A DNA stretch of 45,358 nucleotides from Chroococcidiopsidaceae cyanobacterium CP_BM_ER_R8_30 (GCA_019244235.1 JAFASY010000181.1:1-45358), one strand, 5' to 3'; shown: positions 3,172-30,326, numbered from the stretch's first letter. Numbers and translations: made by a program. Notes: a model not told the origin generated them from the sequence alone.

Positions 3172-3561
3172 GAAAATACCATTTGAGGAATGGTTTACGT
3201 GTTTTATTTTGCATTTATGGTTAAAAGCAGATTCCGGCCACAAATAGTGAATTGGTCTAGGTTGTAGCGATCCCCACGCAAAAATAATCTTCAGAATTTA
3301 TTTATACTGTTGTTATAAATTTCAATATTTGTGTAGAAGGATTGTGCCAAAAGTCGTAGTGTCACCCAACCAGTTTTGAACTAAACAGGCAAGGGATCAA
3401 GTTAAGATGGCAAAAACAGGGATAGAATAGCCCTTGGCATTATGCATAAAGAATATAATTTGTCTACGCTATGTGAATTGATAAGGTCCATCAAAGTAGA
3501 AAAAAATAGAATTAAAGTGTATTTCTTACCAAAGACAGATGCAGTTTATCAATTAGTCTCT
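3172..3561. other. Intergenic stretch, 390 bases, no convincing gene
   Basis: It lies between the start of the minus-strand cysteine-motif gene and the 3' end of the minus-strand DciA-like gene. It is AT-rich and should hold the promoter of the gene at 2881-3171. A 73-codon plus-strand frame at 3442-3663 runs antisense into the DciA-like gene and has no recognisable motif, so it is not called. Confidence 0.5.
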
Positions 3562-27133: not shown

Positions 27134-27254
27134 TTTTGTATATATGAATACAGTTAATGAAATGAGAAGCTTGGTATCTATTTACTATAGTTGTTACTTA
27201 TTTGTTCTAGATAACCTCTTTAACAGATAGTAAAAGCTTGAAAAATTAGATAGT

Positions 27255-27402
27255 CTCTAGGGTTCCGGCTTAGTTCGCAGATAAACTGACTGCGATTTGG
27301 GTGCCTGGACCGAGAGGGGCAAGCTGGTCTAGAAATGTTTTTACCAAAGCAGGGGAAAACGCTAGGTCAGCCACACGGCGGGACAAAAGCCCGGGAGAAG
27401 TA
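27255..27402 (+). promoter_or_regulatory. Guanidine-I riboswitch (ykkC RNA)
   Basis: All three signature blocks of the ykkC/guanidine-I class are present in order: CTCTAGGGTTCCGG (from 27255), GGACCGAGAGG (about 27306-27316) and CACACGGCGGGACAAAAGCC followed by CGGGAGAAG (about 27373-27400). Downstream, GACAG/CTGTC and AGCCC/GGGCT can form a hairpin that competes with the last conserved helix (27388-27437), a plausible expression platform, though its T-run is weak. It precedes the ABC importer genes at 27616-30326 on the same strand. In this class guanidinium binding turns expression on. Confidence 0.92.
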
Positions 27403-27615
27403 GAGGACAGCAATCTGTCTTTGCTCTTCCTGGGCTTTGTGTATTGAGCAAGCTATGCTTGGAGGTCATTTGAGCCTTCGCGAATCCTTGAGTATTCATT
27501 TTCACACAATGTGAGGTATAAACGGATAGAACGTTCGGCATTACGACAGTGAACAGCCTATGCATCAAACCTTTGATGCAGCTTTGGAGATTGACAAGTT
27601 GATTGAGGAGATGAG

Positions 27616-28674
27616 ATGAAGATTCGTAAGCTTTTGTCTTGGTTTAGCCTATTTTTAGTCAGTTTAGTTATTGCAGTTAGCTGCACTACGTCTCAAACGC
27701 CTACTGCTAGTACTTCCTCATCTTCCCCGACTTCTACTACTCCTGCCTCATCTGAAACATCAGTTTCTCTCGGCTACAGCGCTTGGCCTGGCTGGTTTCC
27801 CTGGAAGGTTGCTCAAGAACAAAAGATATTTAATACCAATAAGATTAATGTGGACTTAAAGTGGTTTGATAACTATACAGATTCAATCAATGGTTTGACA
27901 GCCAGCAAATTAAATGCTAACTCTCAAACTTTAAATGACACGCTTAGCCCAGTTGCTTCAGGAGCTGATGAAGTTATTGTCTTAGTCAATGATAATTCGA
28001 CAGGAAATGACCAAATTATTGCTCGCCCAGGAATCAATACGGTTGCCGATTTAAAAGGTAAAAAGGTAGCTGCGGAAGAGGGGACAGTTGATCATTTTCT
28101 CCTATTATTGGGATTAAAAAAAGCTGATTTAACTCAAGCAGACATTCAGTTTCAACCCTTAGAGACAGGAGCAGCAGCAGCAGCATTTGCAGCGGGAAGA
28201 GTAGATGCAGTTGGGGTGTTTGCTCCTTTTACAACCAAGGCACTAAGTTTGCCTGGTAGTAAAGCCTTATTCACTTCCAAAGATTTTCCAGGTGCTATCC
28301 CCGATCATTTGGTAGTCAGTAGAAAAATGATAGAGGAACGACCTCAAGACGTCCAAGCTATGGTTGATGCTTGGTTTGCTACATTAGACTATATCCAAAA
28401 GAATCCAGGAAAAGCAGATGAGATTATGGCAAAACGAGCCGGAGTTTCAGTTGCAGACTATAAGCAGTACAACGCTGGAACCAAAATCTTTACTTTGAAA
28501 GAAAACCTAGAAGCTTTCAGTCCGGGTAAAGATATGACTCATCTAAATTATGCGGCAGAACAGATTAGTCAATTCTTGCTGCAAACTAAATTGATTAAGA
28601 AAACTCCGGATATGAACAAGCTATTCGACGATCGATTTGTCAAAGCATATGCAGCCAAGATAAAAAAAGCTTGA
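27616..28674 (+). CDS. ABC transporter substrate-binding lipoprotein, probable guanidine importer
   Basis: 352 residues of the NitT/TauT (SsuA/ThiY-like) binding-protein type. A lipoprotein signal ends at about residue 23 (LVSLVIAVSC), followed by a Ser/Thr/Pro linker. The mature part starts SVSLGYSAWPGWFPWKVAQE and contains the ligand-lobe segments VADLKGKKVAAEEGTVDHFL and AAAFAAGRVDAVGVFAPFT. Sequence class alone would suggest nitrate, taurine or sulfonate, but the riboswitch directly upstream points to guanidinium. First gene of a three-gene operon; the next gene starts 8 bases after its stop. Confidence 0.9.
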   Translation: MKIRKLLSWFSLFLVSLVIAVSCTTSQTPTASTSSSSPTSTTPASSETSVSLGYSAWPGWFPWKVAQEQKIFNTNKINVDLKWFDNYTDSINGLTASKLNANSQTLNDTLSPVASGADEVIVLVNDNSTGNDQIIARPGINTVADLKGKKVAAEEGTVDHFLLLLGLKKADLTQADIQFQPLETGAAAAAFAAGRVDAVGVFAPFTTKALSLPGSKALFTSKDFPGAIPDHLVVSRKMIEERPQDVQAMVDAWFATLDYIQKNPGKADEIMAKRAGVSVADYKQYNAGTKIFTLKENLEAFSPGKDMTHLNYAAEQISQFLLQTKLIKKTPDMNKLFDDRFVKAYAAKIKKA

Positions 28675-28681
28675 GGATATA

Positions 28682-29530
28682 ATGAATCAATCCCTCGAAA
28701 GGTTACCGGATACCAACTTTTCTAATCCTCAACGAATGTTACCGCCAACAGTTTTCTGGCGGATTGCAGAGGAGATACCCAAGCCTCTAACCTGGAGTTT
28801 GATGGCTCTATCAGTTGGTATTCCTTTTTGTGCGTGGCTAGTTATCTCCAATGCTGGACTAGTTCCGCCCCTGTTTCTTCCTACTCCAACCCAAGTTTGG
28901 ACAGCTGGTCAACATCTTTGGGAAAACGGCGATCTACAGCAGGATATTGCTTATAGCTTGTTTCGTGTTCTTACTGGTTTTTTGCTTGCTGCTATCATTT
29001 CGATTCCTTTAGGAACGTTGATGGGAACCTTTGCCAGTATTCGGGCTCTTATGGAACCAATTGTTGGCATTGTACGCTATATGCCTGCACCTGCTTTTAT
29101 CCCGCTGCTTATTTTATATTTCGGGTTGGGCGAATTACCAAAAATTCTCCTAATTTTTATTGGTACGTTATTTTTTAACACATTAATGATTATGGATGCT
29201 GTTAAATTTGTTTCTAAGGAATTGATCGAAACTACATATACATTAGGAGGTCGGCGGATACAAGTTTTGCTACAAGTCATTTTTCCCTTCATTTTACCTA
29301 ACATTATTGATGCTTGCCGAGTGAACATGGCTGCATCGTGGAACTTGGTAATTGTCGCAGAATTGGTGGCAGCAACCGAAGGCTTAGGCCACCAGATTAC
29401 TCTGGCTCAGAGATTTTTGAGGACAGATGAAATTTTTGTGGGATTAATTGTCATTGGCTTGATTGGTTTAACAATTGACCTGTTATTCCGCTTATTACTG
29501 TGGGTAACATGTCGATGGGCAACTCGATAA
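28682..29530 (+). CDS. ABC transporter permease (NitT/TauT type)
   Basis: 282 residues with about six membrane helices, starting after a 40-residue cytosolic N-terminus. The inner-membrane-component (BPD_transp_1) landmarks are SLFRVLTGFLLAAIISIPLG, the PAPAFIPLLILYFGLGELPK helix and the EAA-type loop ETTYTLGGRRIQVLLQVIFP, which docks to the ATPase. The ribosome site GAGGA overlaps the stop of the binding-protein gene. It forms the channel of the importer. Confidence 0.92.
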   Translation: MNQSLERLPDTNFSNPQRMLPPTVFWRIAEEIPKPLTWSLMALSVGIPFCAWLVISNAGLVPPLFLPTPTQVWTAGQHLWENGDLQQDIAYSLFRVLTGFLLAAIISIPLGTLMGTFASIRALMEPIVGIVRYMPAPAFIPLLILYFGLGELPKILLIFIGTLFFNTLMIMDAVKFVSKELIETTYTLGGRRIQVLLQVIFPFILPNIIDACRVNMAASWNLVIVAELVAATEGLGHQITLAQRFLRTDEIFVGLIVIGLIGLTIDLLFRLLLWVTCRWATR

Positions 29531-29549
29531 CACTCTTTACTCTCTACTT

Positions 29550-30326
29550 ATGCATCTAGCAGTTACTCAACTCTATAAACAGTTCAAAACTCGACAAGGA
29601 CCACTCGTCGCTCTCAAAGATATCAACTTAAGCATTGAAGAAGGAGAGTTCATCTGTGCTGTTGGTGCTTCGGGTTCTGGTAAGTCAACACTCTTAAGAC
29701 TGATTGCTGGGCTGGACACACCAACAGCTGGTGAGATTCAAGTTGATGGGGTACCTGTCACTGGACCAGGACCAGACCGAGGTATGGTATTTCAAAAGTA
29801 CACGCTCTACCCTTGGATGAACGTAGCGCAGAATGTGGGATTCGGGTTAAAGCTACAGGGTGCATCTCACATCCAACGGCGGGAGAGAGTCACTCACTAT
29901 TTGGAAGTTGTCGGGTTGTCACAGTTTGCTAGAGCTTTACCGCAAGAATTATCAGGTGGCATGCAACAACGAGTGGCGATCGCTCGCGCCCTGGCATCTG
30001 CGCCTAAGATTCTCCTCATGGATGAACCGTTTGGGGCTTTGGATGCTCAGACCAAGGAAACAATGCAACAATTCCTCTTAGAGTTATGGAGACGTACTAG
30101 GACAACTATTCTGATGATTACCCACGACGTGGAGGAAGCTGTGTTTCTATCTCAACGAATTTATGTTCTCACCTCTCGTCCTGGCAGCATCAAAACCGAA
30201 ATCAGAATGGATCTACCGAGCGAACGGAACTATCACACCAAAAGCCATTCCACATTTCAGGATTGTAAAGAAACTGTGCTAGATTTACTGCGCAACGAAA
30301 GTGGAAGAGAAGCAGCGGTAGTTTAG
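29550..30326 (+). CDS. ABC transporter ATP-binding protein (NitT/TauT type)
   Basis: 258 residues. Walker A is GASGSGKST (39-47), the Q-loop is MVFQKYTLYPWMN, the signature is ELSGGMQQRVAIARALA, Walker B is ILLMDEPFGALD and the switch histidine is in MITHDVEEA. All sites are intact. It powers the importer encoded with the two preceding genes. The start is 19 bases after the permease stop. The operon ends here; no guanidine hydrolase or carboxylase gene is adjacent. Confidence 0.94.
   Translation: MHLAVTQLYKQFKTRQGPLVALKDINLSIEEGEFICAVGASGSGKSTLLRLIAGLDTPTAGEIQVDGVPVTGPGPDRGMVFQKYTLYPWMNVAQNVGFGLKLQGASHIQRRERVTHYLEVVGLSQFARALPQELSGGMQQRVAIARALASAPKILLMDEPFGALDAQTKETMQQFLLELWRRTRTTILMITHDVEEAVFLSQRIYVLTSRPGSIKTEIRMDLPSERNYHTKSHSTFQDCKETVLDLLRNESGREAAVV

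Follow-up and report, generated by a model that had tools for sequence, protein, structure and literature searches.

A putative riboswitch-controlled guanidine importer in a Chroococcidiopsidaceae cyanobacterium, probably derived from a GdmH operon by in-place deletion of the hydrolase module

Introduction

The closest described system is the operon of Synechocystis sp. PCC 6803 (sll1077 gdmH-hypA-hypB-sll1080-1082), which is preceded by a Guanidine-I riboswitch (PMC8390497, PMC12186494). The proteins encoded by sll1080-1082 rise in guanidine-producing strains (PMC8390497), and the Synechocystis ABC transporter is described in reviews as a guanidine importer (PMC12186494, PMC12930504). For this riboswitch class, guanidine binding has been described as preventing terminator formation and thereby switching the operon on (PMC11410670). 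The subtypes are distinguished by a marker position, occupied by A in guanidine aptamers and by a pyrimidine in the ppGpp and PRPP subtypes (PMC6031431).

Here we analyzed a 45,358-nt stretch of DNA from Chroococcidiopsidaceae cyanobacterium CP_BM_ER_R8_30 (JAFASY010000181.1:1-45358), referred to below as the window. Like the Synechocystis operon, it carries a Guanidine-I riboswitch followed by genes for an SsuA-like binding protein, a permease and an NrtD/SsuB-like ATPase. Whereas Synechocystis has gdmH, hypA and hypB, the window retains only a relic of about 40 nt from the hypA/hypB junction. By its sequence, the locus is a member of the known cyanobacterial guanidine-I-controlled importers and is not a complete GdmH operon. 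The pairing of switch and importer has been published for cyanobacteria (PMC8390497, PMC10119275, PMC12186494), so the system is less novel than the original prediction implied.

Results

Features of the locus

The following features were assigned, with positions counted from the first nucleotide of the window.
27138-27151 (+), NtcA-type site GTATATATGAATAC (GTA-N8-TAC), assigned by motif and followed 23 nt later by a -10-like TATCTAT
27246-27399 (+), Guanidine-I (ykkC subtype 1) riboswitch aptamer, assigned by the full RF00442 model (66.2 bits) and the marker adenosine
27388-27438 (+), terminator-like hairpin (putative expression platform) sharing AAAAGCCCGGGAGA with the aptamer, with a weak U tail, CUUUGUGUAUUG; z -4.7 for the fold of 27376-27450, kept in relatives
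27553-27576 (+), hypA 3'-end relic (T-A-Y-A-S-N-L-stop) that, as in relatives, overlaps the start of hypB in a different frame
27557-27596 (+), hypB 5'-end relic, MHQTFDAALEI..., assigned by alignment; intact relatives read MHQTFDAALEINLLHANQ
27605-27610 (+), Shine-Dalgarno-like GAGGAG, read directly, 5 nt before the importer start
27616-28674 (+), substrate-binding lipoprotein of the SsuA/NMT1 family, guanidine-operon type, assigned by Pfam and NCBIfam families and by the tree
28682-29530 (+), ABC permease (BPD_transp_1), assigned by family match, with 78% identity to the L007 and L020 orthologs
29550-30326 (+), ABC ATPase (ABC_tran) with intact Walker A (GASGSGKST), signature (LSGGMQQR) and Walker B (LLMDEP) motifs

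Riboswitch and leader

The window was searched against all Rfam families using Infernal. Only two features reached gathering level in the 45 kb: one is a tRNA, and the other, on the plus strand, is a Guanidine-I aptamer (E 1.1e-9) that matches the model over its whole length and exceeds the RF00442 gathering cut-off of 63 bits. This aptamer is the sole RF00442 match above cut-off in the 5.54-Mb genome, and its bit score is below that of most relatives. The position equivalent to A46, reading CTGGACCGAG-A-G, is the A expected of guanidine aptamers (73/75 of the aptamers tested carry it), and the ACACGG..GGGA.AAAAGCCCGGGAGA block is intact. Assignment of this RNA to the guanidine-sensing class is well supported by the covariance match and the marker nucleotide, in agreement with the original prediction, which had located the aptamer correctly but, by starting at 27255, cut off about 10 nt of it. 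The only G at the marker position among 75 aptamers occurs in Leptolyngbya FACHB-36 (L021), in one of two aptamers (at 3543 or 6356; CTGGTCCAAGGG), and may be a sequence variant.

The aptamer 3' strand AAAAGCCCGGGAGA doubles as the 5' side of an extended hairpin that reaches to about 27438, and from sequence and folding the two structures are predicted to be mutually exclusive. Folding of 27376-27450 gave -35.1 kcal/mol, and 0/200 shuffles were equally stable. Similar hairpins follow the aptamer across the 94 leaders folded, with variable U tails. Because the hairpin shares an aptamer strand, guanidine binding should block the terminator and turn the operon on, and the switch in the window would thus act as a guanidine-ON antitermination device.

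The NtcA consensus, GTA-N8-TAC (PMC3898017), was sought within 210 nt upstream of the aptamer core in 94 Guanidine-I leaders from related loci. The motif was present in 61/94, with 5.8 expected from mononucleotide shuffles; the leaders are related by descent and hence are not 94 independent trials, although the excess is still large. A TA-rich, -10-like box often follows the site at a distance of about 22 nt. The motif predicts that nitrogen control by NtcA is likely combined with guanidine control by the RNA.

Importer and its ligand

Behind the riboswitch, three intact ORFs spanning 27616-30326 encode a complete lipoprotein, permease and ATPase, as originally described, and their NMT1/SsuA-type, BPD_transp_1 and ABC_tran families account for the NitT/TauT-like label given from sequence. 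Searches with Pfam and NCBIfam profiles indicated that the binding protein passes only the broad SsuA_fam subfamily cut-off, and the importer missed every NCBIfam equivalog cut-off for taurine, sulfonate and nitrate subunits. SsuABC, TauABC and NrtABCD belong to the same NitT/TauT-type ABC importer superfamily, but differ from the window in their operon partners and regulators as well as in these cut-offs. The closest solved relatives of the binding protein bind sulfonates, nitrate or taurine.

In a 91-protein tree, the binding protein, which has 74% identity to its Chlorogloeopsis ortholog, falls in a clade of 40 rows, 29 of which are members of GdmH operons, with support of 100/99. The protein sits on a long terminal branch, and its grouping with L008 as sister has moderate support (85/92). 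Across cyanobacteria, the orthologs are encoded with GdmH/HypAB or with a guanidine carboxylase behind the same switch. Invariant residues of the binding protein include many that are acidic or aromatic (W57, W60, W63, D85, D126, D132, E154, E155, D159 and E183), which would suit a cation. Orthology and regulation point to guanidine as the transported ligand, and the proposal of probable guanidine uptake is upheld by the covariance match, the marker nucleotide and a binding protein orthologous to its counterparts in GdmH operons. Differences in the importer at codon positions 1/2/3 are about 0.22/0.12/0.49; the genes show the signature of purifying selection over a long time, not specifically since the module deletion described below.

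A deletion scar between switch and importer

The hairpin is separated from the importer by about 180 nt. Within this spacer, approximately 40 bases (27557-27596) align to the hypA-hypB overlap of relatives, with a best local alignment score of 45; shuffling the region 50 times gave no score above 30. In the hypA frame (frame 2), the window encodes TAYASNL*, and the HypA proteins of relatives end in YASNL, YASNI or YAPNL. The relic is mutated relative to intact relatives. What is left of it can be read as a 19-codon ORF (27560-27619), with its stop codon and the start codon of the importer overlapping in ATGA.

The hypA/hypB junction relic between hairpin and importer indicates that the enzyme module was lost by deletion at this very site. 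What survives is a mid-module fragment with sequence missing on either side, which requires no fewer than two deletions. On this sequence evidence, the ancestral locus held uptake and breakdown together before gdmH-hypA-hypB was lost. The earlier observation that no guanidine hydrolase, carboxylase or exporter adjoins the importer holds for intact genes, but overlooked the hypA/hypB remnants in the leader.

Comparison with related loci

A total of 80 related loci, nearly all cyanobacterial, were compared. Most have the order riboswitch-gdmH-hypA-hypB-binding protein-permease-ATPase. Within the same family, five loci have Npun_F0494 as a flanking gene and four of these also have cobQ, both as in the window. 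Relatives at this cobQ/Npun_F0494 locus carry gdmH-hypA-hypB between switch and importer. Operons of the Gloeocapsopsis/Aliterella type from this family (L023/L111, L113 and L028/L114) share the cobQ-Npun_F0494-riboswitch locus and importer order with the window, but keep the hydrolase module that the window lacks.

Two further loci show decay of the module. In Desmonostoc geniculatum (L010, 4793-5526), the riboswitch is followed by about 46 N-terminal GdmH residues, including a stop, fused to the HypB C-terminus; the importer is intact, and the remainder matches the sister locus L009 at 91-96%. This is an independent in-place deletion in which switch and importer were kept, as in the window, although the scar has a different composition and the D. 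geniculatum genome, unlike the window's assembly, contains a carboxylase (G061:C14). The other locus (L120, G015:C6:56000-68000), from the same family and the same cobQ/Npun_F0494 locus, has decayed and carries stop codons and deletions, in a genome with an intact guanidine operon elsewhere (L115). The independent decay of L010 and L120 indicates that loss of the gdmH-hypA-hypB module is recurrent.

In G003, G009, G050, L052 and L080, the riboswitch directly precedes the importer and gdmH is absent, as in the window. These systems have a DUF1989 pair and a carboxylase, either adjacent or at a separate site and in some behind a second Guanidine-I switch, whereas such a carboxylase was not found in the window's assembly. 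In some relatives (L105 and L052), the guanidine carboxylase lies behind a second such switch together with a DUF1989 pair. In L052, L055, L066 and L079, two Guanidine-I switches are arranged divergently close to the importer; the second switch of L052 is oriented towards a DUF1989-like pair and a guanidine carboxylase.

Genome inventory for guanidine breakdown

The source genome (G000; 5.54 Mb in 328 contigs, 97.2% complete) was searched for enzymes that could act on imported guanidine. No GdmH was found in the operon or in the assembly. The original prediction had proposed a genome-wide search for a guanidine hydrolase of the ureohydrolase family; the sole arginase-family gene, on a different contig (C64), encodes a 299-aa agmatinase-like protein. 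This gene was rejected as a hidden GdmH: its product is nearest to agmatinases, and its score of 229 bits is in line with that of paralogs found alongside GdmH. Most close relatives have such an agmatinase-like paralog in addition to a GdmH of about 400 aa. Of the nickel chaperones HypA and HypB, only the leader relic was found; there is no operon-type HypB, and the best genomic HypB-like match has 30% identity. No SMR exporter was found in the genome, and urease is present.

A full urea/guanidine carboxylase (TIGR02712 over cut-off) was likewise not found in the assembly; the best match, a 452-aa biotin carboxylase on contig C11, was rejected, as it covers only profile positions 1-444. We checked for this enzyme in 25 genomes, comprising the source genome and those whose importer lacks GdmH. 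It was above cut-off in 22/25 and below in three, namely the source genome, G065 and G066. These counts fit a simple rule in which a carboxylase is normally present where the hydrolase is absent.

An intact allophanate hydrolase (G000:C215:2720-4405, 775 bits, over cut-off) adjoins a biotin ligase (L131:1701-4420). The pair starts 1.7 kb in from the contig end, with VapBC-like genes in between, and is without its usual companion, the guanidine carboxylase. In each of the six other genomes where the allophanate hydrolase reaches full score, the carboxylase is present too (6/6). Together with the intact hydrolase gene, this suggests that the carboxylase route exists or was recently lost in the source genome, which we consider more likely than not. 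As no carboxylase turned up in the assembly, however, this route does not yet explain what becomes of the imported guanidine. The original statement that uptake and breakdown are genetically separate is the weak part of that prediction: the module was deleted in place, neither hydrolase nor carboxylase was found elsewhere in the assembly, and breakdown is, on present sequence, missing or unassembled and not demonstrably located elsewhere in the genome.

A second ykkC-type RNA

The same genome contains a second ykkC-type RNA (L117:7621-7516 (-), equivalent to G000:C238:16620-16515), whose score of 41 bits is below cut-off; its guanidine marker is C and its 3' block is altered. An ORF for an EamA transporter (175 aa, apparently truncated) follows 20 nt downstream, and close by are a TauE/SafE gene, a LysR gene and genes for a luciferase-type monooxygenase and an SsuA-like binding protein. 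The marker C and the differing 3' block, which fit ykkC subtype 2, led us to reject both this RNA as a guanidine switch and the EamA gene as a riboswitch-controlled guanidine exporter. No close relatives of the EamA gene were found among 39 related genomes, and a plasmid search with the element gave no match. Orphan ykkC subtype 2d RNAs are described as controlling EamA and TauE transporters, with an unknown ligand (PMC7266159); by that description, the position of this RNA beside EamA and TauE makes it a candidate 2d member. Its sulfonate-utilization neighborhood possibly hints at the 2d ligand.

Discussion

The window very probably encodes a guanidine-inducible guanidine importer that descends from a GdmH operon by in-place deletion of the enzyme module. 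In the proposed mechanism, transcription would start upstream, probably aided by NtcA under nitrogen shortage. Without guanidine, the leader would fold as a terminator and transcription would stop; with guanidine, the aptamer would hold AAAAGCCCGGGAGA, no terminator would form, and binding protein, permease and ATPase would be made. The ancestor would have had the common cyanobacterial riboswitch-gdmH-hypA-hypB-importer order, from which in-place deletions would have taken gdmH, most of hypA and most of hypB. With the module deleted, the switch now drives the importer directly. Imported guanidine most likely is, or until recently was, degraded through the carboxylase route. The points against this explanation are the weak U tail, an aptamer score below that of most relatives, the carboxylase that was not found in the assembly, the sulfonate, nitrate or taurine ligands of the closest solved relatives of the binding protein, and the long branch and moderately supported sister placement of that protein.

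The most serious competitor, which we nevertheless regard as unlikely, is that both breakdown routes are truly lost and that the orphan importer takes up guanidine or a guanidino compound while decaying or serving another use. The lack of GdmH, full carboxylase and operon-type HypB in a 97%-complete assembly speaks for it, as does the carboxylase found in 22/25 genomes checked but not in this one. Set against this are the roughly 3% of the genome missing from the assembly, an intact allophanate hydrolase just 2.6 kb from a contig end, the 6/6 other genomes that pair this enzyme with the carboxylase, and the intact importer genes. That the importer has been kept under selection with both known routes gone is doubtful; if true, guanidine or a related guanidino compound would be imported for a use beyond the hydrolase and carboxylase pathways.

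Transport of sulfonate, taurine or nitrate, with the riboswitch coincidental or repurposed, would agree with the SsuA_fam match and the ligands of the best solved relatives, but is improbable given the missed equivalog cut-offs, the orthologs that sit with GdmH/HypAB or carboxylase behind the same switch, and invariant residues that suit a cation. It is still harder to attribute the deletion to an assembly artefact, with the gdmH-hypA-hypB module in truth still intact between switch and importer. Although the sequence is split into 328 contigs, the junction lies within a 45-kb contig, the relic is mutated and at least two separate deletions are required, unlike a simple misjoin, and the single-copy genes, expected elsewhere in the assembly, were not found. 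An aptamer of ykkC subtype 2, sensing ppGpp, PRPP or nucleoside diphosphates, would have the overall fold common to all ykkC RNAs (PMC6031431); the marker A in place of a pyrimidine, the intact ACACGG..GGGA.AAAAGCCCGGGAGA block and the guanidine-related gene context make this reading the least credible of all.

Under the favored explanation, a guanidine importer descended from a GdmH operon, the lack of an enzyme nearby would reflect a deletion scar and not a different design. For annotation, the lesson is that a NitT/TauT label can conceal a guanidine importer. The conserved NtcA-type site suggests that guanidine operons sense nitrogen hunger and guanidine jointly. The hydrolase module has been lost repeatedly while switch and importer stay, which provides natural cases for asking whether the importer is of use with the carboxylase route alone.
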